DNA of 64,000 nt from Longicatena caecimuris (GTDB taxonomy: Bacteria > Bacillota_I > Bacilli_A > Erysipelotrichales > Erysipelotrichaceae): the NCBI RefSeq assembly GCF_004341945.1, contig NZ_SMBP01000008.1, positions 1-64,000 on the forward strand, read 5' to 3'. The notes beneath the pieces are model-generated. The model saw nothing but the letters and a program-made list of their open reading frames with translations, made no database searches and had not been told where the DNA came from. Below are positions 2,673-39,101 of this stretch, piece after piece. A program made the translations under genes and the position numbers. Within the stretch, counting starts at the first letter, position 1. Each line of letters begins with the position of its first letter.

Positions 2673-3377
2673 ATGAGCGCATATATTGAATTTCAAAATG
2701 TAAAAAAAATATATCAGATGGGTGAAGTTCAGATTGAAGCATTAAGCGGTGTAGATTTTTCCATAGAGAAAGGTGAATTTGTCGTCATAGCCGGGGCGAG
2801 CGGTGCCGGAAAAAGTACGATTTTAAACATCCTTGGTGGTATGGATAGTGTAAGCAGCGGAACGATTTATGTGGATGGCAAAGAAATCAGCGCCTATAAT
2901 GCAAAACAGCTGACCACCTATCGCCGTTATGATATTGGTTTTGTATTTCAGTTTTACAATTTGGTACAAAATCTGACGGTAAAAGAAAACGTGGAATTGG
3001 CAACACAAATTTGCAAAGAACCCTTAGATATTGATGAAACGATTGAGGCGGTAGGCTTAAAAGAACGCAGTCAAAACTTCCCGGCGCAATTGTCCGGAGG
3101 AGAACAGCAGCGAGTAGCCATTGCCCGTGCTATTGCTAAAAATCCTAAACTTTTGTTATGCGATGAGCCTACGGGAGCTTTGGATTATAATACTGGAAAA
3201 CAGATATTAAAACTTTTGCAGGACACCTGCCGCCAACGTGGGGTCAGTGTCATTGTTATCACCCATAACTTGGCATTAACTGCCATGGGGGATAAAGTTA
3301 TCAAGGTGCGCAACGGAAAAATTGAAAGTGTGACGATCAATGAACATCCGCTGCCGGTAGAAAGGATCGAGTATTAA
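2673..3377 (+). CDS. ABC transporter ATP-binding protein, MacB/LolD type
   Basis: Start at 2673 is preceded by GGAGG at 2661-2665; an ATG at 2649 lacks a site. The 234-residue ATPase shows Walker [11 protein letters not shown]-loop FVFQFYNL, signature LSGGEQQR and Walker [13 protein letters not shown]. This is the MacB/LolD/FtsE-like class that powers FtsX-fold permeases. It hydrolyses ATP on the cytoplasmic face. Its stop codon overlaps the start of the next gene by one base (TAATG), so the two are translationally coupled and almost certainly form one complex. Substrate cannot be read from the sequence. Confidence 0.95.
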
Positions 3378-8174: not shown

Positions 8175-9677
8175 TTATACATGCGATAGACCATAAACTT
8201 TCATAAACTTATTTTTCAAATAGTCTATATAATATTCTGGATTGAAAGGTTCTCCACTTGCTTTGAGCAGAATTTCATCAGCTGTTAAGCTTGCTCCATA
8301 ACGATGCACGTGTTCTTTTAGCCAATCACTGATAATCTTGAAATCACCTTTGCGTAAGGCGTCTTCAACATCGATATCCTGTTGCATGGCGTGATAGAAT
8401 TGGGCGGCATATGCACTACCCAATGCATAGGTCGCAAAATATCCCAAATCCGCAGCACCCCAATGCATATCCTGCAAAATGCCATCTTTATCATGCGTTG
8501 GACGAATACCGAGATACTCTTCATATTTATCATTCCACATGGTATCTAAATGTTCATAATCAACCTTGCCATCAAAGATTTCTTTTTCAAGCTCATAGCG
8601 AATAAGGATATGAATCGGATAGGTAAGTTCATCTGCTTCCGTACGGATCAAGGAAGGTTTTGAAGCATTGATCATGGTCATGAATTGATCCAGTGATACC
8701 TGTTGCAATTGCTTAGGGAAATGGGCTTGCAGCTTTGGATAGTTGTATTCCCAAAAGGCTTTGTTACGTCCGATATGGTTTTCCATTAAGCGTGATTGTG
8801 ATTCATGCATGGCAAATCCGATATCATTTTTAAAGGCTGTATCGGTAAATGTTTCATCAACCTGCAGACTGTATAAGGCATGACCATATTCATGAATGGT
8901 TGAAAAAATAGCCGATAGGACATTGTCTTTATAATAATGAGTTGTAATACGTGCTTCGTTTGCGGAAAAGAAATCTGTAAAAGGATGCTCGGTCGTTCCC
9001 ATGTAGCATTTCGTCGGATCTACTTGCATATACGCATTTAATTCTTGCATGAAAGCTTCCTGTTCACAAAGATCAAAATCTTGATATAAAAGACTGTCAT
9101 CAATCTTGCGTCCTTCTTTTTGAATGCGCTGAATGAGTGGTAATAGTTCTGTTTTGATGCGGGCAAAAAAGGCATCATATTTTTCACGATTCATACCTGA
9201 CTGATAACGATCTAATAAATAATCATAATCGCTGCAATCTTTTTCAACATAGCTTATGACTTCTTTCTGTGCTTTGATGACTTGGATCAGATGCTGCTTA
9301 AAGTGTTTATAGTCATCACGTTCTTTTGCTATCTGCCATGCTTCTTCACTGTCCGCAACGGTCTTTTTGAAGCGGATATACACATCTTTTGGCAAGTTGC
9401 GATTGATATCCAACTCTTTGAAATACAAGGCCAATTCTTTCTTTAATTTTTCGTCCTTGGTAATCTTCATTAAGGTTTCTAATTTCTTTAGATGCTCAGG
9501 ATTCATCTGATAGGCAAAAGCTTCCCCTGCCAGAATTGACATCATCTCATTGCGATAGGGGATACCAGCACTTGGCGCGATGGTGGCCATATCAAAATAC
9601 ATGGTAGAAAAAGCCAATGTATAGGAAGCGTTGATACGCTTATATTCTGAAAAAAATGTTCTTAGTTCTTTTTCCAT
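8175..9677 (-). CDS. M32 family metallocarboxypeptidase
   Basis: Start placed at 9677 (MEKELRTFF), with GAGG 9 bases upstream; the in-frame ATG ten codons earlier has no site. The 500-residue length is normal for the carboxypeptidase Taq (M32) family. The zinc motif HEYGH sits in STIHEYGHALYS near residue 265, followed by the family's ESQSR motif (HESQSRLMEN) and the IRTEADELTYPIHI segment that supplies further active-site residues. It removes C-terminal residues from peptides in the cytoplasm using a divalent metal. It lies 51 bases before the GGDEF gene in the same direction; no terminator is evident between them. Confidence 0.95.
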   Translation of the reverse strand: MEKELRTFFSEYKRINASYTLAFSTMYFDMATIAPSAGIPYRNEMMSILAGEAFAYQMNPEHLKKLETLMKITKDEKLKKELALYFKELDINRNLPKDVYIRFKKTVADSEEAWQIAKERDDYKHFKQHLIQVIKAQKEVISYVEKDCSDYDYLLDRYQSGMNREKYDAFFARIKTELLPLIQRIQKEGRKIDDSLLYQDFDLCEQEAFMQELNAYMQVDPTKCYMGTTEHPFTDFFSANEARITTHYYKDNVLSAIFSTIHEYGHALYSLQVDETFTDTAFKNDIGFAMHESQSRLMENHIGRNKAFWEYNYPKLQAHFPKQLQQVSLDQFMTMINASKPSLIRTEADELTYPIHILIRYELEKEIFDGKVDYEHLDTMWNDKYEEYLGIRPTHDKDGILQDMHWGAADLGYFATYALGSAYAAQFYHAMQQDIDVEDALRKGDFKIISDWLKEHVHRYGASLTADEILLKASGEPFNPEYYIDYLKNKFMKVYGLSHV

Positions 9678-9828
9678 TTCTTGATACCTCATATACTGGA
9701 ATAGCATCGCTTATTCACAATATACCTTTCCTTTCTCAGTTATTCCTATTGTATCATATTCATAACACTTTATTCTTCAAAGAATGTGGTTTTCTGATAG
9801 GATTTTATCCTATTTTTTTAAAAGTGTC

Positions 9829-11229
9829 TCATTTTATAAGATGAGCATGCAGCCAAGTTGTTGTAGCTGTACTTTGCGCATGAAAAAGGGCATATGCACT
9901 TTGAGCTGCTGTTGTATAATCTTGCTTTTCTATTGCTTGCATAAAGGAGCATGCATATTGTGTAATCGTCTTATCGTGCTGCTGCATTTGTAATACATGG
10001 GAAAGCTGTTTTCCCCATAATTGTATCTGATATAGGGTGCGTATACATTCTTTTGCTACAACGAGTTCACTTACCTTTAAAAGCTGCTGCAAAATAGCAT
10101 ACCCCATCAGATATTCCTCTTGCTTCTCTACAAGCTGCTTCAGATGGGTAAAATCAAAAGTTGCATGCATTGGCAATTGCGTGATCACAGCAGGAACGAT
10201 CAGTTCCAGAAAACTAAGACTTTGCTGATATTGTTTTAACATCTTTTGAACTGAGGAGCGCTCATAGGTAATATCACAGTCATTACAGGCTGTATATACA
10301 TACCGGCCTTTTCCTTTCTTGGTCTTGATAATACCCATACCATCCAAAAGATCTAAGGCACGTCGAATGGTGCTGTTTGAAACTTGTAAAGATTGCACAA
10401 GCTCATGATGGGATGGCAGATAAGTACCTTCGACATACTCTGCATCATCCAGTTTTACCAAAAGGGCAGTCGCAATGGAATAGCATTGCTGCGAATGGCG
10501 ATGTTGCAATGACCATTGAAATGGTATCGTTGCGCTTTTTTGTTGTTGTATAGGATGCGCATCAAGGTATGCTTGGAAATAATGGATATAGCGTGCAGGC
10601 ATATTGATATAGGTATCTTTCCAAGGACTGTTTGGATAATGGGTTAATTTATCCTTTAAAATTAGGATACTGGTCTTTTCTGCAAATAGAAAATCTAAAT
10701 CGTTAATCATATCGTGATGCAGCAGATAAGGAAAACGCAAAAAATGAATGAGCTGCAAAAAGAAACTGATAATCAGCTCATTGTGTAGTTTGGCAAGATA
10801 AATAAGACAAATATGGGTAATGTTTTCTAAGTGATATTGCTGATCATCATCCAATATGGCTAAAATCTTTTGTCGATCCTTCTTCGTTAAAGCTGTGGCA
10901 GCTTCCTGCATGATATTGGAAAAAAGCAAGGAAGTACTTTGCAATAGATCTTCATAAAGATAACGACAATTGTGAAAATATGCTAATGTGTAAGAAGTGT
11001 CCTCCTTTTTATGATAACAGGATATTGTCTGTTTGCGCTCATCCATACGAATAAACCCTTCGCATGCTAAGCGTTTATATATTTTCCGCACCGTTTCTTT
11101 TGCTACATGGAAACGCATGGCAATCTCATGAATGGAAGGAAATGGCGTACCATATGGATATCGATTGAATGACAAACAGGTATGCAAATATTCATAAATT
11201 AATTCAGATATTCCATTATCTTTATACAT
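9829..11229 (-). CDS. transcription regulator with two GntR-type winged helices
   Basis: A 466-residue protein starting at 11229 after GGGTGAAG. It contains two separate GntR-like winged-helix domains: residues about 5-70 (PSIHEIAMRFHVAKETVRK, then GFIRM) and about 230-300 (LPSHHELVQSLQVSNSTIRR, then GIIKTKKGKGRYVY). Between and after them are helical regions with no UTRA or FCD domain that I recognise. Two wHTH units in one chain could let a monomer bind both halves of an operator. The nearest divergent target is the pseudo-esterase gene at 11685, and a palindrome overlaps that gene's promoter. Ligand unknown. Confidence 0.85.
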   Translation of the reverse strand: MYKDNGISELIYEYLHTCLSFNRYPYGTPFPSIHEIAMRFHVAKETVRKIYKRLACEGFIRMDERKQTISCYHKKEDTSYTLAYFHNCRYLYEDLLQSTSLLFSNIMQEAATALTKKDRQKILAILDDDQQYHLENITHICLIYLAKLHNELIISFFLQLIHFLRFPYLLHHDMINDLDFLFAEKTSILILKDKLTHYPNSPWKDTYINMPARYIHYFQAYLDAHPIQQQKSATIPFQWSLQHRHSQQCYSIATALLVKLDDAEYVEGTYLPSHHELVQSLQVSNSTIRRALDLLDGMGIIKTKKGKGRYVYTACNDCDITYERSSVQKMLKQYQQSLSFLELIVPAVITQLPMHATFDFTHLKQLVEKQEEYLMGYAILQQLLKVSELVVAKECIRTLYQIQLWGKQLSHVLQMQQHDKTITQYACSFMQAIEKQDYTTAAQSAYALFHAQSTATTTWLHAHLIK

Positions 11230-30296: not shown

Positions 30297-30338
30297 AGCT
30301 GTTTAAATGGATAGTTATGTGAAAAGGGACTTGTTTCG

Positions 30339-30823
30339 GGCTCTAAATTAACGTGGGGTTTCAAAAAAGAAGTAATAAGGTTCGGAAATGAATAAATTAC
30401 TTCTTTTTTAAAGGCTGCTTATAGTATGCCCGGAAGGCAGGAAGGGATTTGATTCAAAAAATATCTGCCACATATAGCGCACACAAAGTGTCTGGCACGA
30501 TAGCGGATCAGACAAGAACGGCTGTTCAGCGCAGAATGGGTAATAGATTTAGTTTTATAGTCTTTAATATGTGTAGGAGAAAAACCACAGGAAGGACAGC
30601 TAAACTTTTTAGATACGAGAGTAATATCGATAATCAAAGAACCGTTTTCACTTCGAGAAGAGGATAAAACATCTTTTTGAGGTATATTCAATAAATCTGT
30701 TATAATATCCATAGTGGAAAACTACTCCTTTCGTTAAGAATAATGTTTGACAACGATATTCTACAACGAAAGGTTTTTTGTGAAATGAACAAAAGAACCC
30801 ATCCCACAATAATTTAAATATCC
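30339..30823 (-). mobile_element. internally deleted ISL3-family insertion sequence
   Basis: Imperfect terminal inverted repeats GGCTCT..AAATTAACGTGGGG (from 30339) and, on the other strand, GGATATTTAAATTATTGTGGGA (from 30823) bound a 485-base remnant holding only the first 97 codons of a transposase. TTGTTTC is found just outside both ends (30331-30337 and 30825-30831), extended to CTTGTTTC/TTTGTTTC, consistent with the 8-bp target duplication of ISL3 elements with one later change. Full elements are about 1.4 kb, so most of the transposase has been lost. Confidence 0.72.
30419..30712 (-). pseudogene. ISL3-family transposase, N-terminal fragment
   Basis: Ninety-seven codons carrying the N-terminal zinc ribbon of ISL3 transposases: CPSCGF, then HFVCAICGRYF. 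Full-length proteins are more than 400 residues with a DDE domain, none of which remains. A stop follows LPGIL, then 80 bases to the IS end. Confidence 0.82.
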
Positions 30824-30833
30824 TTTGTTTCCC

Positions 30834-30878
30834 TTTTTTCTTTTGAAGAAAAAGATTACATATGTTCTACGCAATCTA
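30834..30878. repeat. 45-bp direct repeat, left copy
   Basis: Matches 38158-38202 at 43 of 45 positions, ending CTACGCAATCTA. The right copy lies within an intact 43-codon gene; this left copy is a fragment of the same gene, placed between the IS end and the decayed TOPRIM gene. Confidence 0.85.
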
Positions 30879-30888
30879 AATATCGAAT

Positions 30889-31903
30889 ATGTCTTATATC
30901 AAGCTTGAATTATTAAACAAAATCAAGAAAGTTGATTTACTTACTTGTTAAATTATCAGTCAGAGCGATTAAAAAAGATATCACATAATACTTTTTGTAT
31001 AAGAGATCATGATAGTTTGCATATATCGAATGGATTATGGAATTGACAGTCTATGGAAATCGGAGGCAGATTAGCATTAGATTTTTTAATCAAAGTCGAC
31101 GGTTATTCATTTATGGAAGCAGCTGAATTAATTGCAAGAAGCCTATCATTAAAAGAACCAAAATACATTCCTTATTCAGAAAAAGAAAGAGATCGGAAAT
31201 TACAAAAGCCATTGCCTGAAAAAGATAATCAAATGGCAATCTATTATTTATTGAGCCAAGGAATTTCATACGATGTCATTTATTATTGTATCACTCACTA
31301 TCTTATTTATCGGTCTGTTTACCATAATCTTGAAACAGATAGAATATTTAGTAATATAGAATTTGTAGGGTATGAAAAAGAAACGCAGAGGATGCGACAT
31401 ATTGCATTGAGAGGTATAAATAATAACTTCATAGGTGACGCTACTGGAAGTGATAAGAGATTTTCTTTTTGTATAGAATCTGATCCTAATTGCCGTATAG
31501 TACATGTATGTGAAGCACCGATTGATGTGTTATCTCAAGCTACACTGCTTACTTTAGAAAATAAGAAGTTTAATCAAGATCATATTCTTTCGTTAACTAG
31601 AATTTATTGTTTAAAAAATGAAAACAAAGAAATTAAAATTTCTGTTGCACTGAATCAATTTTTAATAGATCATCCTCTGGTTGACAATATCATATTTCAT
31701 TTGGATTTAGATTGTACAGGACGAATGGCTATAAAAATTATTATAGAAAATATGGAATTAAGATGCTTACGTACAAATGCTATGATGAACCACCCCAGTA
31801 TTATAAAGATAGAAATGATAGCCTTAGTATAAGATTATGGATTTTTAGGTCAAAATCAAAAGTTAAGAAAACAAAAGACTTTAATAAAGATGAACTTTCT
31901 TAA
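30889..31903 (+). pseudogene. decayed DUF3991/TOPRIM (CHC2-type) primase-like gene of a conjugative element
   Basis: The reading frame can be rebuilt across three lesions. It begins MSYIKLELLNKIKKVDLLT at 30889; a frameshift near 30943 leads to NTFCIRDHDSLHISNGLWN, then a TGA at 31044-31046 (probably once TGG) and GGRLALDFLIKVDGYSFMEA. The body continues through a TOPRIM-like HVCEAPIDVLS and FHLDLDCTGRMA, and a second frameshift near 31765 moves to CYDEPPQYYKDRNDSLSIRL. This is the order of DUF3991/TOPRIM proteins found in integrative conjugative elements. The longest intact part is 31053-31832 (259 codons). It marks the island as the remains of such an element. Confidence 0.8.
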
Positions 31904-32077
31904 GAGAGCATAGATATATATAAGTAGCGATATGAATCTTATGTTCCCTTTAATATGTTATGTAAATGTGATAAACTATAGTTAGTGGATTATAATAGTA
32001 AAATTTAAAAAATTCATAATAAATATAAAGATTTTTTTAATCATATGACCTATTATTGATAACACAGGGAGGAAATT

Positions 32078-35000
32078 ATGGAACCGAAAGAATTATTAAG
32101 AAAATTGCATCCTGATCAATTTTCTGACTCTAAAGTAATAGACAAAATTGAATGTCCTAGAGATTTTTTAGATTTTTCAATTTCAAGATTATCTGAGCAA
32201 AATAAGCATTTTGACTTCGAAGAGTTTATACGAAAGTTGTTAGAACGAGAAATTTGCCCAAATTTAATAGAAGAAACAGGTCCAGCAGGTGGTGGTGATG
32301 GTAAAGTTGATACTGAAAATTACTCCGTATCTCCTAATAAACAAATATTTTGGTGGTATGGGCTTAATCCTACTAATGATAAGTGGGCTTTTGCATTTAG
32401 TTTAAAAAAAGATTGGAAATCAAAATGTAATTCAGATATAAAAAAAATAATTGAAACCAAACGCGGATATACTAAAATATTCTTTGTCACAAACCAAGCA
32501 ATCAAAAATAATATTAGATTAGAGTATCAGGATTTGAAAAAAGAAGAGACAGGCATAGAGGTAACTATATTTGATAAAACTTGGATTTTAGATAAGGTGT
32601 TACAAGATAAAAATTTAGATTTGCTGAAAATTTTAAACATCACTACACTTGTTAAAGAAAAACAAATTGGTATAAATGATATGAAAAAGCAAAAACGGCT
32701 TGAAGAGGTAGAGAAACGTTTAAGTGAGTATTCATCGTCTGGAATACTTAATCAAGATGTTCTAGATCTTGCTAATGAATCTGCAATCTTAAGCAGAGAT
32801 TTAGAAGAAAATGAAGACGTGGTTGTTGGTAAATTCGAACGGGCTTTAAGACTTTCAGGAAAAAAAGGAAATCATAAATCTGAAAACGAAAATTTGTATA
32901 ATTTAGCATGGTATTATCATTGGTGGTTAAATGATACTGAAAACTTTGAAAAATGGTATAGTGAATATGAATCCAAAGTCTTAGAAGGAAAGAATTTGGA
33001 TGAAATTATGGATTTAACAAATTTATGGACACTTTACTTTACAAGAAACGAAAGAAATTATGAAAAAACAAAAGATAAAACAGAAAAGCTGCTAAGTTTA
33101 TTATATGAGAAAGAAAATTCAATAAGCCGTGTTACTCAATTAATGGCTAAGACTAAAATTTGTATTATTAAAATAACGCTAAATGATGATGTTGATTCTC
33201 AATTTGGGCAACTGACAGCAATAGCCGAAGAAGCAGAAAAGTTTAAAGAATACAACTTTGTAGAGTTAGCAAAAATGATTGAAGTATTGCTACCTGTTTA
33301 CAATGATAATGAAAATTATAATTGCCTATATGAAACCATTACAGATAAATTAACAAATAGGCAAGGTGAAATACAAAGAGCAAAAATGTATGTGAAAAAA
33401 GCAAAACTTTTATCATCAAACTCAAATTATTACAATGCTATTAATTTATTAGGTAAATGTTTAACACTCCTATATAAAAATGAAACAGATGATAAACTTC
33501 TTGAAACTTATGTTAATATTGGTGGAAATTTTGATTCGATTGGTTTATATTATGCTGCCAAAAATTATTATATTGCTTCAATTACATTAGCTTTAGATAT
33601 TTTTTTAAGAGAAAATATTATGGATCCATTCTGGATCAAAATTGTAAATCGTGTAATAGATATTGAAATCCAAATGGGTAATGTAGAGGCATCAATACAA
33701 TGGATAGATATAAAAAATTTATTCTTGAATATCTTGTTTGAGAAAAATGAGCAAATAGATTTGGAAAAAGAACATGAATTTTTGATACAAAGAGATGCTT
33801 TGATTTCATCAGAAATTTTAAGCACAAAATTTGATGACTTTCAAATAATGGATAAAATCATTCATATTTGTAAAAAGAATGAATTAATCACATCTGAGGT
33901 AATGGCAAAATATGTGATAGGTGAATATGAAAATCAATTATTAAATGAATGTGAAAATGATAAGACGAAAGTTGATGAATTAGTCAGAAGTTTTTACGAG
34001 GATTCTTTATATCAAGAATTACCTAGTCCATCATATATAAACAAAAGAAGCAGTGAAATTACATCATCATTAAATGGCAATATTATATGTATTAAATTTA
34101 TTTCAACAAAATTATTGCATAGATTCGCTGAATTTTTAATCGCATTATTAGAAAATACATTTGCCACAATGTTCTTCTATAAAACTTTTATGCGGGGAGA
34201 TATCATTATTATCTTAGAAGAAAAAAATACAGGAAAATTCAGTATGAGATATTCTTTTGACGGTATAGACACTTATACGATAATTTTAGATTCATTAAAT
34301 TTATATGATATTTCTGTGGACAATCATAAAATTATAACTAATACTCTTTATGAATTATTAGTTAATATCCTAGCTGTAGGTTTCATTTATGACGATTTTA
34401 AAAAAACATTAGAAAAAATGCTGAAAGATGATGAGACATTTGAAAGAGGACTAAATCATACAAATAGCCTTTATAATCTTAATAAAATTTTTGGTAGTGA
34501 ATGTGAAGAATTTGCTATTCATAGGATTAATAGAACTTGTGAATGGTATAATGGCATTGAAATAAAACGAAAAGTGGAAGAAACTATTAATCCTTTTAAT
34601 GATGATAAAAATATTGTATATAGCGAACCTGAGAAAAAACTTTTTGAAAATATATCACAAGATGATTTCTATTCACCAGGACTTATAAAAAGCAATCATT
34701 GGGATTCGGCTGTTTGGAAAGGAGTAATGTATTTAGGAGATTTAAATAACAAAAATTTTATAAAAATTGGATTTTTGTTTCAGCAAGAAGGTGGTGCTAA
34801 AAGAGTTTTTCAAGATTTGATTAATGTTGCAACAACTGATGATAAATTCGGGAAAATTATTATTTCTTTCATAAAAGGAATTGATAAAAGCAGAAAATAT
34901 GATTATCGAATAATGGTTACTGGAAAGGTAGAATTACCTAAAGATAAAAAAGAAAAAATTATTATCAGTTCACCTTCAAGAATCCATACAATGAATTGCG

Positions 35001-35275
35001 ATAACGACAATAACTTTCGAATTCTAGAAGATATTATATCTAATGGGAACAATCCTAAAATATATATTTTTCCTGCTGTGTTAAAGAATAATAATGAAAT
35101 AACGCCTTTATGGAATCTTGAAATAAAGATAAAAGAAGTAAATATAAAAGATGCTTATAAAATAAGCAAACAAGATATTGAAGCTTGTTCCATATCGAAG
35201 AATGATAATCCAATTATTCCAAATGGTATAAAGAATGCTCCAGTAATAGAATTATTAAACATCAAAAATAATTAA
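32078..35275 (+). CDS. 1065-residue nuclease-like/TPR-like protein, candidate defence gene
   Basis: Starts after GGGAGG. Residues about 40-190 look like a PD-(D/E)XK-type nuclease domain: GPAGGGDGKVD at 69-78 (Asp74, Asp78), WAFAFSLKKDW around 104-113 (SxK in place of ExK), IFFVTNQAIKN and VTIFDKTWILDKVL. From about 210 to 780 the protein is helical with TPR-like pairs (for example YYNAINLLGKCLTLLYKNET and YYAAKNYYIASITLALDIF). The C-terminal 250 residues are not recognised. No Walker A or transmembrane segment is seen. The gene is very AT-rich with many AAA/TTT codons, unlike the flanking chromosome, and stands alone in a mobile remnant beside a toxin-antitoxin-like pair. A stand-alone anti-phage effector is the best guess. 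Confidence 0.65.
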   Translation: MEPKELLRKLHPDQFSDSKVIDKIECPRDFLDFSISRLSEQNKHFDFEEFIRKLLEREICPNLIEETGPAGGGDGKVDTENYSVSPNKQIFWWYGLNPTNDKWAFAFSLKKDWKSKCNSDIKKIIETKRGYTKIFFVTNQAIKNNIRLEYQDLKKEETGIEVTIFDKTWILDKVLQDKNLDLLKILNITTLVKEKQIGINDMKKQKRLEEVEKRLSEYSSSGILNQDVLDLANESAILSRDLEENEDVVVGKFERALRLSGKKGNHKSENENLYNLAWYYHWWLNDTENFEKWYSEYESKVLEGKNLDEIMDLTNLWTLYFTRNERNYEKTKDKTEKLLSLLYEKENSISRVTQLMAKTKICIIKITLNDDVDSQFGQLTAIAEEAEKFKEYNFVELAKMIEVLLPVYNDNENYNCLYETITDKLTNRQGEIQRAKMYVKKAKLLSSNSNYYNAINLLGKCLTLLYKNETDDKLLETYVNIGGNFDSIGLYYAAKNYYIASITLALDIFLRENIMDPFWIKIVNRVIDIEIQMGNVEASIQWIDIKNLFLNILFEKNEQIDLEKEHEFLIQRDALISSEILSTKFDDFQIMDKIIHICKKNELITSEVMAKYVIGEYENQLLNECENDKTKVDELVRSFYEDSLYQELPSPSYINKRSSEITSSLNGNIICIKFISTKLLHRFAEFLIALLENTFATMFFYKTFMRGDIIIILEEKNTGKFSMRYSFDGIDTYTIILDSLNLYDISVDNHKIITNTLYELLVNILAVGFIYDDFKKTLEKMLKDDETFERGLNHTNSLYNLNKIFGSECEEFAIHRINRTCEWYNGIEIKRKVEETINPFNDDKNIVYSEPEKKLFENISQDDFYSPGLIKSNHWDSAVWKGVMYLGDLNNKNFIKIGFLFQQEGGAKRVFQDLINVATTDDKFGKIIISFIKGIDKSRKYDYRIMVTGKVELPKDKKEKIIISSPSRIHTMNCDNDNNFRILEDIISNGNNPKIYIFPAVLKNNNEITPLWNLEIKIKEVNIKDAYKISKQDIEACSISKNDNPIIPNGIKNAPVIELLNIKNN

Positions 35276-35492
35276 ACTAGAAGTAATGGTTAACTTATTT
35301 TATTAACATTATTAAGAGATAAAAATGATATTTTTAGATATACCTGCAATGTATAATTATTCGAATGTAAATACACTATACCAGCAAGCACTGGATACGG
35401 ATAGCCATGTAGGCATCCTCCTTCCTTCCCCTTTTCTAGGGATAATCCCTATACCCTTGATGTAAAATATTTTATTGTCAGCTTTCATTACT

Positions 35493-35524
35493 CTCTTGAT
35501 AATCATCAAGAGTAATAGTACAAT
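35493..35524 (+). promoter_or_regulatory. promoter with operator palindrome for the HTH-DprA/PRTase pair
   Basis: TTGATA (35496-35501), 17-base spacer, TACAAT (35519-35524). A perfect inverted repeat CTCTTGAT-aatc-ATCAAGAG (35493-35512) covers the -35. A second palindrome TAGGGAT-a-ATCCCTA lies upstream at 35437-35451. The gene that follows has an HTH domain, so autorepression is likely. Confidence 0.65.
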
Positions 35525-35552
35525 ATATCTAAACAGAGAGGAAGCGAGTTAG

Positions 35553-36731
35553 ATGGAAAGAAAAGAGATTATGGAATTAATGCAAAATATTTTTACATCT
35601 AGTGAAGCAGCGGAATATTTGAATATTTCGACACAGAGATTAAATCAGCTTGTTCATGAAAAAAGAATTGATCCCATAAAAGTTAGTAAATCTGTTATGC
35701 TTTTTTTGAAAAGCGATTTGGAAAAACGTAAAATTGTAAATGTATCTAATAAAGCTAATCCCCAAAATGCAGATTGTTTTGATATAAACAACTCTTTTGT
35801 CCGTGATGCTATCCTTTATTATACAATTCAACAGTATTTCAATAACAACGATAAACGTACTTGCCAGTTTATAGAACAGATTCAAAAAGTTAATAATTTC
35901 GATTTTCATAGAGGACTGCCAATAAATATTCCTTTACTATCATCTCTTTTAAAAGTCAGTGAGAAAGATTTTTATAACAAATACACTAGAGTAAAAGAGA
36001 GTTTTCTATCATTGCCAAATGATGTTGTTCTTGTGAAAAAAGGTGATGACATTTATTCTAAGCTGCTTGCAGAAACTAAAGAAGCTGCACCCTATCTTTT
36101 TTTAAAGGGAAATGTTCATTTACTTGCTGAAAAATCAGTATGTGTTGTGGGAAGTAGGAATGCATCTTTGGATTCAATGGAAAAGACTGAAAGAATAGTT
36201 AAATCGTTAATTCAAAGAAACATTGTAGTCAATGCAGGTTTGGCAAAAGGAATTGATACTGCAACACACCGTTCGGCACTAAAATATGGAGGAAGAACGA
36301 TTGCAGTCATTGGTACTCCAATCAACCAGTATTATCCGAAAGAAAATAGAAATCTCCAGATGGAAATAGAAAAAAAGGGATTGGTTGTTTCTCAATTTCC
36401 ACCATGTAATGTTGTAAACAGATGGAATTTTCCTACCCGTAATGCAACGATGAGTGGTATATCATTGGCAACAATCATAATGGAAGCTGGTGAAACAAGT
36501 GGTGCTTTAAAACAAGCAGACTATGCCTTAAAACAAGGACGAGATGTGTTAATTCCCCAGTCTACTATTAATAATCCACTAATCAAATGGCCCACTAAAT
36601 ATGTTTTAAAAGGTGCGTTTGCATTTCGTACATTAAAAGAAGTTTTAGAAATTCTGAACAAAAATGAATTATTACTTGATCTATTCAATAAATCAGATAT
36701 GGAGGAAATCAGTGATGTGGAAATGGACTGA
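35553..36731 (+). CDS. HTH-DprA fusion, ShosA-like antitoxin candidate
   Basis: A 392-residue protein. Residues about 12-60 form an excisionase/MerR-like helix-turn-helix (FTSSEAAEYLNISTQRLNQL ... DPIKVSKSVMLF). A central region follows, then a DprA/Smf Rossmann domain from about 185, with VGSRN at 199-203, GLAKGIDTATH, AVIGTP, FPTRNATMSG and IMEAGETSGALKQADYAL. Ordinary DprA loads RecA during transformation. Here the HTH, the AT-rich island and a 17-base overlap with a phosphoribosyltransferase-like gene instead recall ShosTA, in which a DprA-like protein is the antitoxin. The HTH may make it its own repressor. ShosTA identity is inference from domains. Confidence 0.78.
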   Translation: MERKEIMELMQNIFTSSEAAEYLNISTQRLNQLVHEKRIDPIKVSKSVMLFLKSDLEKRKIVNVSNKANPQNADCFDINNSFVRDAILYYTIQQYFNNNDKRTCQFIEQIQKVNNFDFHRGLPINIPLLSSLLKVSEKDFYNKYTRVKESFLSLPNDVVLVKKGDDIYSKLLAETKEAAPYLFLKGNVHLLAEKSVCVVGSRNASLDSMEKTERIVKSLIQRNIVVNAGLAKGIDTATHRSALKYGGRTIAVIGTPINQYYPKENRNLQMEIEKKGLVVSQFPPCNVVNRWNFPTRNATMSGISLATIIMEAGETSGALKQADYALKQGRDVLIPQSTINNPLIKWPTKYVLKGAFAFRTLKEVLEILNKNELLLDLFNKSDMEEISDVEMD

Positions 36732-37947
36732 TGCAGATAACATTCAAGCAATCATTTTGGATATGGATTCTCTATGTCAAGATTATCTTGAATATCCATT
36801 TACATCTATATTGAAAGATGTCAAAGTGTTTAAGGTTAAAGATTTTTGGAATAACGATGTTGAAAAAACACAAGATACAATAGAGTACTTTGATATCTCC
36901 TCTTTGTTACAAGAAATATTAAGTATTGCTAAATGTGAATCCTATTCCTTGATTGCTATTAGCAGCAATGCTTTGTTTTTGAAAGAAATGATGCAAAATC
37001 ATATAGGTACTATTTTAGCTGGAGAATTAACCAAAGAGTTTCTAAAAAGTACCCCTGATTTCACATATACGGCATTAGATACTTTGGATCAAATTTTATT
37101 AAAGGAAAGAAAAGGTTATGGTGCTGAGGTTTTCGCAACATACAGTAAATCACGTAAAAAAATGTCATTATTGAAAAGTGAAACTATTGTTCAATTAGAA
37201 AATGGACAGCAAGAACCTTTGACACTATATTTTGGAGGTAGATATTATTCTCAAGGACATCAATATTTATTAGACGATCCACTTTCTGTATTAGTAAAGG
37301 AATTTAAAGATAATTATGTAGAGGTCATAGACTTGTTCTTTGATTTAGCAATAAATTTTATAAATAAAAAAGAGAAAATAGATATTCTTACGGCTATTCC
37401 ATTAAAACCTATTGAAATAAAAAACAAGCGTTTTGATAGATTCGCTTCACTTCATTTAAAAAGATGTACTAATAATCAATTGGAGCTTCAAAGCATCTTA
37501 AAGTGTAATAAAGATTTTTCTCAAAAAGGAAATAATCTATTTAACAGAAAAGAAATCGTTAAAGGAGCTTTTGAAGTTACAGAAAATATAGCTGGTAAAA
37601 GTATCTTACTTATGGATGATGTGTATTCTTCAGGTTCAACTTTTTTAGAAGTAGCAAAAACACTATATGCGGCAGGAGCGAAAAATGTAAGTGGTGTCTT
37701 ATTAGCTGTTAACCAATTAACAGAGTCAACTTCTATGTCTTATCATAGTCTTCTTTGTTCTTGCTGTGGGAAACCAATGACGTTAAAGATTAATCATAAA
37801 AACAAGCAGATGTTTTTTGGATGTACGGAATATCAAAAACATCTTTATGTTGACACCTCTATATCTATGCAACATGGATTACGTATGTTGTTAGATAATA
37901 ATAAATTGGAGATTACAGAAATTATAGATTTGGAAGATGAGTATTAG
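36715..37947 (+). CDS. HAD-like/phosphoribosyltransferase protein, ShosT-like toxin candidate
   Basis: Start at 36715, with GGAGG 9 bases upstream and inside the end of the DprA gene; the two genes overlap by 17 bases. The 410-residue protein begins with a HAD-like stretch (AIILDMDSL near 10-20, then LIAISSN), and holds a type I PRTase PRPP loop LLMDDVYSSGST at about 298-309 followed by AAGAKNVSGVLLAV. Near the C-terminus CSCCGKPM and FGC suggest a small metal-binding finger. PRTase-type proteins paired with DprA-like partners are toxins in ShosTA systems, probably acting on nucleotide metabolism. Substrate unknown. Confidence 0.75.
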   Translation: MWKWTDADNIQAIILDMDSLCQDYLEYPFTSILKDVKVFKVKDFWNNDVEKTQDTIEYFDISSLLQEILSIAKCESYSLIAISSNALFLKEMMQNHIGTILAGELTKEFLKSTPDFTYTALDTLDQILLKERKGYGAEVFATYSKSRKKMSLLKSETIVQLENGQQEPLTLYFGGRYYSQGHQYLLDDPLSVLVKEFKDNYVEVIDLFFDLAINFINKKEKIDILTAIPLKPIEIKNKRFDRFASLHLKRCTNNQLELQSILKCNKDFSQKGNNLFNRKEIVKGAFEVTENIAGKSILLMDDVYSSGSTFLEVAKTLYAAGAKNVSGVLLAVNQLTESTSMSYHSLLCSCCGKPMTLKINHKNKQMFFGCTEYQKHLYVDTSISMQHGLRMLLDNNKLEITEIIDLEDEY

Positions 37948-38086
37948 AAATTGCAATTATTTAAGTAAATTACAAAGAACTAAAATATAGTTATAAAATT
38001 GTAGGAAATAACCCCCTAAAGTGACCCCTTAAGTCTAGACCCCTAAAGATTTTGGATACCCAAATAATGATTTATAACGTTTACAT

Positions 38087-38138: not shown

Positions 38139-38270
38139 ATGAATAGAACAGAGATGTTTTTTTCTTATGAAGAAAAAGATTACGTATGTTCTACGCAATC
38201 TAGTGAAAAGTATTGGCTGATGCAGATGGCACTAGATGAACAGGGAAGTGGTTTATGTGATATCCCTTAA
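38139..38270 (+). CDS. small 43-residue protein, part of the mobile element
   Basis: ATG at 38139 follows AAAGGAG by 10 bases. The product starts [17 protein letters not shown] and ends GSGLCDIP. I do not recognise its function. A broken piece of the same gene is present at 30834-30878 in front of the TOPRIM pseudogene. Its last 18 bases overlap the convergent collagen-like gene, so this may be a truncated form and the right edge of the island. Confidence 0.6.
38158..38202. repeat. 45-bp direct repeat, right copy
   Basis: 43 of 45 positions identical to 30834-30878 in the same orientation. It lies inside the small gene 38139-38270. The two copies enclose the AT-rich island. Confidence 0.85.
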
Positions 38271-39101
38271 TTTAATAATCGTCAATGTTAAAGTACCCTC
38301 GGTAGCTCTTGCATTGGCGTTAAACGTAAGGAAGAAATCACTTGCAGAAATCATACGTATGATAAAGGTGTTAGAGCCATAGGCACTTGTATTATCAGCG
38401 GCATTCATAAAATAAATGGCCGTTTCAATATGGGGAGCACCATTATAGTATGGTGTTATCTGCATATAGCCTTGTGGATTTAACAGGGCAGATACGTGAT
38501 AGGATATGACATAATAACCGGGTTCTATCACAAGATTTGTATCGGAAATTTGGCGAATCTGACCAGTGTCATCTTCCGTAAGTGTGCCAAAAGGGATGCG
38601 TGTGGCATTGGTGAAGCTGGCAGCAAAAGTGATGAAGCTGGCAAATGCAATTTCAGGCAGTATACCCGGCAAGCCTTGTGGAATGCCAAATTCTAAGGCG
38701 ATGCCATCTGGAGTTATGCTGGAAGTAACACTTGCTAAAGAGCCAGGTGCTAAAGTTGTTGTACCAATCACTTCAACTTGAGGCAAAGGCCCTGTCGCGC
38801 CTGTTTCTCCTATAGGTCCGGTAGCTCCGGTATTTCCAATAGGTCCGGTTGCACCGGTAGGTCCAGTAGCTCCGGTGTTTCCAATAGGTCCGGTTGCACC
38901 AATAGGTCCAGTAGCTCCGATGTTTCCAATAGGTCCGGTTGCACCAGTAGGCCCAGTAGCTCCGGTATTTCCAATAGGCCCAGTTGCACCAGTAGGCCCA
39001 GTCGCACCGGTCGCACCGGTTGGTCCTATAGGAGGGATTCCATCATCACAACAGCAAGGACACGGCGGACAACATTCGCAATTCCAATTTGTGTATTTCA
39101 T
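38253..39101 (-). CDS. collagen-like protein with BclA/C1q-like C-terminal domain
   Basis: A 282-residue protein after GGAGGTAAAGT. The first 20 residues are Cys-rich ([14 protein letters not shown]). Residues about 25-110 are perfect Gly-X-Y triplets, mostly GATGPTG and [10 protein letters not shown], with Thr in place of hydroxyproline. The last 135 residues form a beta-rich domain ([20 protein letters not shown] ... TLTLTIIKL) like the C-terminal trimerising domain of BclA exosporium glycoproteins. The Thr residues are likely O-glycosylation sites. A sigmaK-like promoter lies upstream, suggesting expression late in sporulation. It should form a trimeric surface filament. Confidence 0.88.

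Follow-up and report, generated by a model that had tools for sequence, protein, structure and literature searches.

A single gene in a 64,000-nucleotide stretch of the Longicatena caecimuris genome (RefSeq assembly GCF_004341945.1, contig NZ_SMBP01000008.1, positions 1 to 64,000; here called the window) encodes a 1065-residue protein that we interpret, with a probability of about 0.58, as a stand-alone, one-gene immune protein acting against phages or other mobile DNA. Computation establishes the order of its domains, the Mrr-like domain at its N-terminus, the superhelix of tetratricopeptide repeats (TPR) that follows, the lack of any constant partner and the mobility of the gene. By sequence comparison, the protein belongs to a widespread family that has no name in Pfam, NCBIfam, PHROGs or PADLOC. 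Searches of these libraries and of PDB sequences returned no match to the protein except sub-threshold TPR or coiled-coil hits, and no family in PADLOC-DB 2.0.0 was matched at E<=1. An original prediction, made from the letters of this DNA, had found no named system to fit the whole architecture, and the four libraries agree.

Membership and distribution of the family

Searches by tblastn placed relatives on 16 plasmid records; in 11, the match spans at least 80% of the window protein. Their hosts are Bacillota, Cyanobacteriota and alpha-, beta- and gammaproteobacteria, and the full-length copies are about 24-27% identical to the window protein. One phage-labelled contig also carries a relative. 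A profile, A2, built from the window protein and ten of these relatives, confirmed 206 stretches from 302 candidates in a one-genome-per-species collection of 84,980 genomes. The best 80 of the 206 were fetched, and 88 full-length rows were aligned; the sampling of relatives chose rows in part by patterns over two N-terminal blocks (GGGD and SxK). Nine loci whose frames are truncated or broken (L008, L015, L031, L039, L056, L069, L077, L093 and L099) were left out of the alignment, as were the distant paralogues L012 and L013, and L100. Of ten dropped loci that were examined again, nine have the N-terminal blocks with D74, D78, E80, S108 and K110 intact, while L008 gave no match to those blocks. 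A profile search of a viral collection found five contigs with a family member; the single window protein, used as query against viral contigs, found nothing.

Fifteen phylum labels occur among the 73 aligned rows of known origin, one of them from a Nanohalarchaeota-labelled metagenome-assembled genome (MAG; L053) that may reflect a binning error. Because the tree requires phylum labels to change 19 times against a minimum possible 14, descent within phyla dominates, and frequent cross-phylum transfer is not claimed. Among 97 genomes of the same and the neighbouring taxonomic family, the gene is present in the window's own genome only. Many family loci sit on long chromosomal contigs. The literature yielded no description of the family, supplementary tables lying outside the reach of that search, and the family may already have been discovered under a code name. 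The accessible portion of the DefensePredictor report (PMC13092281) counts PD-(D/E)XK domains in 13 of its validated systems and mentions TPR in the legends of figures; one of these 13 could be the family described here.

Domain architecture

The original prediction had pointed to three N-terminal blocks, GPAGGGDGKVD (residues 68-78), WAFAFSLKKDW (103-113) and FFVTNQ (135-140), as resembling a PD-(D/E)XK nuclease with SxK in place of ExK. The open reading frame (ORF) and the blocks lie where it had placed them, and their residues are conserved in the 88 relatives. Residues 51-150 form the best-conserved stretch of the protein. D74, D78, E80, S108, K110, W113, K116, D120, R129, D166 and W169 are identical in all 88 rows, and E48 is kept in 84. 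Ten rows match the GGGD pattern alone and 23 the SxK pattern alone, and none of these loses the other block; the ten rows taken from plain tblastn (L002-L007, L009-L011 and L014) keep both.

A profile of 81 N-terminal domains, A7, was compared by hhalign with an Mrr_cat (PF04471) profile of 29 sequences, from which L156, the weakest of 30 fetched Mrr_cat loci, was excluded. The two aligned over 105 columns, spanning the whole domain, with a probability of 83.1% (single-comparison E 8.9e-6), and with 83.3% in the reciprocal direction, against 0.1-0.3% for comparison pairs such as the C-terminal region with Mrr_cat. The N-terminal domain against SMEK_N gave 0.2%, which rules out SMEK_N as the relative of this nuclease domain; Pfam matches to SMEK (PF21941) are weak and occur in 3 of the 81 domains. 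Where a fold without nuclease similarity had been envisaged as the contrary outcome, an end-to-end alignment with Mrr_cat was thus found. The register pairs FE47-48 with the FE of the Mrr helix, D74 and D78 with GD..D, S108-x-K110 with the QxK strand, FVTN with FITT and the FDKTW turn with VDG, the same order of elements as in type IV Mrr enzymes. Unlike Mrr, the family has S for E or Q, is clearly linked by profile-profile comparison but not by HMMER (Mrr_cat matches in 3 of 81 members, best E 0.027), and in the window protein continues into roughly 870 further residues made up of TPR and novel C-terminal domains.

The full-length AlphaFold model, computed from 78 rows, has a mean predicted local distance difference test score (pLDDT) of 88.1 and a predicted template modelling score (pTM) of 0.79. 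It places a helix at 44-58 (with E48), a strand at 79-81, a strand at 103-108 leading into S108-x-K110, a helix at 113-126, a strand at 133-138, a helix at 144-158 and a strand at 161-165. This predicted order is that expected for an Mrr-like PD-(D/E)XK core. Fold searches with the full-length model list no PD-(D/E)XK entries, a result that is uninformative because TPR matches fill the list. Profile and model together point to a divergent Mrr-like PD-(D/E)XK domain at the N-terminus, a putative nuclease. Given the Mrr_cat register and the order of elements in the model, D78 and K110, the residues singled out originally, are therefore the right primary candidates for catalytic residues; Lys110 is not universal, being Arg in the E. 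coli homologue described below. The S of S108-x-K110 is itself atypical for PD-(D/E)XK, and that homologue has SxR.

At position 110 the distant paralogues L012 and L013 carry Q or N, and they retain K116 and D120. Because these and the E. coli homologue lack K110, K116 is the lysine with the wider conservation; in both branches the catalytic lysine may have shifted or activity may have been lost. In the E. coli copy, with R at 110, the role would fall to K111 or K116 unless that branch is inactive. L012 (5965-9015) and L013 (5953-8967) encode proteins of about 1010 residues with an N-terminal GPVxAGGDQGRDxE and a K116/D120-like block that lacks K110, and they appear to represent a sister family. 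One adjoins a Shedu gene, the other an ABC-three-component system.

The long helical repeat region recognised earlier proves to be of TPR type by fold: residues from about 200 to 646 are predicted to form a superhelix that VIA-align matches to RapH with Z 15.1 (3.8 A over 149 residues) and to LGN, kinesin light chain and many other TPR domains with Z 12-15. The Pfam TPR_12 match of the window protein lies below cut-off (E 0.017).

The C-terminal 420 residues, folded alone, give a pLDDT of 87.0 and a pTM of 0.83. They had been called an unrecognised domain, and profile searches of PDB and Pfam indeed found no sequence relative for this region; PDB searches with full-length, N-terminal and C-terminal profiles returned chance-level matches alone. 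Two libraries yield a weak fold match of residues 657-796 to zincin metallopeptidases (M1, M61, ImmA/IrrE, SprT). The top Foldseek matches in PDB are M1 and M61 aminopeptidases, though weak (best E 0.004, probability at most 0.87), and the viral library BFVD gives IrrE-, M1-, SprT- and M34-like entries among others (E 0.05-0.7). VIA-align reaches Z of at most 7.7 over 109 residues within positions 12-151 of the C-terminal model, a level that unmatched models can also reach. The resemblance is weakly zincin-like and nothing firmer. None of the 88 members has HExxH in the aligned helix; the six HExxH strings that occur fall within the repeat region, closer to the N-terminus. E692 and R790 are nevertheless identical in 88 of 88, and this pattern argues against a working peptidase. 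In residues 870-1065, W875, W880 and Y943 are invariant in the 88 rows and R968 is kept in 94%; no fold relative was recognised for this part, which the fold searches barely probed.

No NTPase (nucleoside triphosphatase) family was found for the window protein in Pfam, PADLOC or NCBIfam, and among 78 C-terminal regions the one ATPase match was to a single member and at chance level (E 0.069). Pfam searches of the window protein and of the family's N- and C-terminal regions recognised no winged helix, SRA, YTH or other DNA-reading domain.

Genomic setting and the E. coli homologue

Plasmids and prophages carry relatives, and defence and recombinase genes adjoin relatives more often than they adjoin control regions; the housekeeping settings considered as the contrary outcome were not what was seen. 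The three nearest ORFs on each side of 25 loci gave 149 neighbour proteins. Arbitrary regions of the same genomes (25 of 30 yielded one) gave 148 control proteins after one long protein (L118) was left out. PADLOC models matched at E<=1e-10 number 212 for the neighbours and 75 for the controls, counts of models and not of proteins. Among the matches listed, those of neighbours include DISARM (DrmA, DrmC), DpdF (Dpd), AriA, MADS, several candidate systems, and methylase and specificity subunits of type I restriction-modification systems; those of controls are largely one-member PD-T4-6 models, apparently from one kinase. Pfam finds Resolvase in five neighbours and Phage_integrase in three, whereas the 25 families most often matched by the controls include no recombinase.

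In ten pairs of plasmid loci and control stretches, defence genes other than toxin-antitoxin types are named in four against one, by our own reading of product names. The four are L005 (a SMEK-domain protein adjoining the member), L006 (DUF1837 and a DEAD helicase), L010 and L015 (each an ATPase with an S8 peptidase, L015 also SAVED); the control is L172 (DUF3883). Toxin-antitoxin-type genes number three in each set. The DUF1837 and DEAD/DEAH helicase genes of L006 (11429-15024) lie directly downstream of the member and form what we take to be a Hachiman-like pair. Four loci from the viral collection have terminase, portal, head protease and minor tail proteins among their neighbours. On L014, deposited as a bacteriophage contig, an 880-residue ORF (8579-11221) appears by eye to join a methyltransferase to a helicase, and upstream ORFs resemble a Bacteroidales conjugative element, not a phage.

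The gene probably acts alone, because its closest relative shares no neighbours with it and no partner recurs across loci. That relative, L016, from an uncultured Clostridium MAG, is 62% identical in protein and 69.8% in nucleotides over 32065-35257, with no other gene of the region in common; the only other nucleotide match is distant and covers 99 bases at 3087-3185. The L016 gene is preceded by a secA-like gene (by eye), a KilA-N protein (PADLOC PDC-S22) and a split integrase (by eye). When 725 neighbour ORFs from 89 loci were clustered, no partner occurred in more than eight. The commonest clusters, at eight loci each, are a resolvase-like one and a mixed one drawn from loci, L002 and L003 among them, that carry annotated ParB genes; an adenine-methylase-like cluster occurs in five. 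In 63 of 83 loci the upstream neighbour shares the gene's strand, as does the downstream neighbour in 43 of 81.

Escherichia coli carries a homologue (WP_039268304.1) of 1083 residues, 29% identical to the window protein over its full length, that was reached through the DNA similarity of a Pantoea plasmid copy. It is present in 26 of 5426 complete genomes, 23 of which have at least 80% of the gene. The gene lies directly after a prophage tail fibre assembly gene in two genomes, and in another between prophage remnants near a tRNA-Thr gene and paoD, with an ATP-dependent nuclease three genes upstream. A tyrosine-recombinase (integrase) remnant ends 62 bp upstream in all four copies examined (Table 1), and one split copy adjoins an integrase. 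This placement is the behaviour of accessory mobile genes, and the recombinase remnant, like the split integrase of L016, may mark a mobilisation route. An insertion sequence splits the gene in two records (H34, H45), and five others annotate it in two pieces or as partial (H35, H48-H51); because copies decay, the gene would seem dispensable or costly in E. coli. A flank search for empty prophage sites was uninformative, the common tail fibre assembly gene being matched in 5057 of the 5426 genomes.

Within the window, the gene stands in a segment of low guanine-cytosine (GC) content (Table 1), consistent with the mobile island proposed earlier. The toxin-antitoxin-type system that the original prediction placed next to it is real as a neighbour, a ShosA/PsyrA-like DprA gene with a PsyrT/ShosT-like phosphoribosyltransferase gene; as a part of the same system it does not stand, since L016 lacks it. 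The DprA-like protein has an N-terminal excisionase-type helix-turn-helix (HTH_17, excisionase PHROG), and the phosphoribosyltransferase has sub-threshold C-terminal matches to zinc ribbons of recombinase or topoisomerase type; this ShosTA-like fusion may read single-stranded DNA directly. Upstream, a fragment at 31053-31832 shows sub-threshold similarity to DUF3991 and Toprim_2 and resembles the remains of a primase from a mobile element. A 97-residue ORF at 30419-30712 (minus strand) is presumably the zinc-finger start of an insertion-sequence transposase, and we take 38253-39101 (minus strand) to encode a collagen-like repeat protein of the spore-surface (BclA-like) type. A scan for promoters and terminators hardly exceeds shuffled sequence (58 against 50.4 +- 7.2, and 3 against 2.3).

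Table 1. Positions of the features discussed, in window coordinates except for the E. coli loci.
Feature	Position	Strand	Basis
Gene for the 1065-residue protein (putative nuclease, TPR, weakly zincin-like, C-terminal domain of no known family)	32078..35275	+	Intact ORF, ATG start
Ribosome-binding site AGGGAGG	32066..32072	+	5 nt ahead of ATG
Mrr-like PD-(D/E)XK putative nuclease domain, residues 44-186	32207..32635	+	hhalign, conservation, model secondary structure
Predicted TPR-type helical superhelix, residues 199-646	32672..34015	+	VIA-align
Weakly zincin-like domain (M1 aminopeptidase-like N-lobe), no HExxH, residues 657-796	34046..34465	+	Fold search
Alpha/beta C-terminal domain, well folded in the model, without recognised family, residues 870-1065	34685..35272	+	Model, conservation
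Low-GC acquired segment around the gene, approximate	~30.3-38.0 kb (30300..38000)	none	GC 26-33% against ~37% for surrounding DNA
DprA-like (ShosA/PsyrA-like) gene	35553-36731	+	PADLOC ShosA 1.6e-68
Phosphoribosyltransferase (PsyrT/ShosT-like) gene	36664-37947	+	PADLOC PsyrT 4e-12, ShosT 3e-7
Broken tyrosine-recombinase fragments upstream of E. coli copies	L175 19129-19461; L176 14129-14461; L177 8606-8938; L178 8615-8938		

Mechanism and alternatives

As a stand-alone immune protein, the product would use its TPR superhelix, zincin-like domain and C-terminal domain to recognise a protein or nucleic acid derived from an intruder. Binding would rearrange or oligomerise the protein, freeing or assembling the N-terminal nuclease, which would then cut DNA, either the invader's or, in an abortive response, everything. 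A metal would be held by D78 with D74, E80 or E48, and the basic residue would be K110 or K116. Because no nucleotide-hydrolysing domain is recognised in the chain, switching would occur by binding alone, without NTP hydrolysis. We suggest, tentatively, that the family represents a phylum-crossing class of NTPase-free innate immune receptor in which TPR, zinc-less zincin-like and new C-terminal domains switch an Mrr-like nuclease directly.

The STAND NTPases (Avs), in the accessible part of their description (PMC9122126), include one-gene proteins that join an N-terminal Mrr_cat effector to repeat sensors. The window protein is like these in being the product of a large single gene, with an N-terminal Mrr-like effector and repeats that may sense phage. 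The family nevertheless differs from known Mrr-effector STAND proteins: no STAND or other NTPase domain is recognised in the window protein, and its repeats are central, with two further domains after them.

Several observations weigh against the stand-alone immune reading. Pfam searches of the window protein do not find the nuclease domain. One protein can match many PADLOC models, so the contrast between neighbours and controls is one of models, and the excess of named defence genes beside plasmid copies is small. The E. coli homologue carries E80Q and K110R, at odds with a simple catalytic story, and for this reason nuclease activity may not be kept everywhere in the family.

Among the alternatives, the strongest, though we consider it unlikely, is direct restriction of type IV kind, in which the protein would read modified or structured invader DNA and cut it without needing a protein as trigger, while its TPR and C-terminal parts served as a platform that reads DNA or a complex. 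Of the families compared, Mrr comes closest to the nuclease domain, and Mrr enzymes are modification-dependent; a single gene with no constant methylase partner would suit such an enzyme. TPR arrays, however, usually bind proteins or peptides, and neither winged helix, SRA nor YTH was recognised. An anti-plasmid or element-competition role, by which the protein would serve its mobile carrier and not host phage defence, is improbable: full-length relatives do reside on plasmids, beside annotated ParA/ParB in L002 and L003, but the E. coli copies occupy prophages and chromosomal islands and many loci lie on long chromosomal contigs.

Slightly more doubtful again is a protein that only binds or regulates, its nuclease-like domain being inactive either through loss or from the outset. 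The replacement of (D/E)xK by SxK, the E. coli substitutions and the Q or N at 110 in L012 and L013 would fit it; the constancy of D74, D78, E80, S108, K110 and K116 in 88 of 88 rows over many phyla, in the best-conserved part of the protein, speaks against it. Membership of the neighbouring ShosTA-like system (DprA-like antitoxin, phosphoribosyltransferase toxin) or of a larger operon is scarcely credible, although the pair starts 277 bp downstream on the same strand: L016 lacks it and no neighbour recurs in 89 loci, which refutes such membership as a general rule and rules out ShosTA as a functional partner, and ShosT-like matches in 14 of 30 relatives' genomes cover the ComF-like stretch of that protein, the four fetched lying on contigs that differ in length from those of the family members. 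ShosTA/PsyrTA thus fits the neighbours, as a separate system, and not the 1065-residue protein.

The stand-alone immune reading gives the family its wider interest. At least 206 stretches in one-per-species genomes, absent from four annotation libraries, amount to a sizeable gap. Its presence in complete E. coli genomes makes the question testable in laboratory strains. If the defence role is true, the family would show that coupling a nuclease effector to a repeat sensor does not require an NTPase switch.

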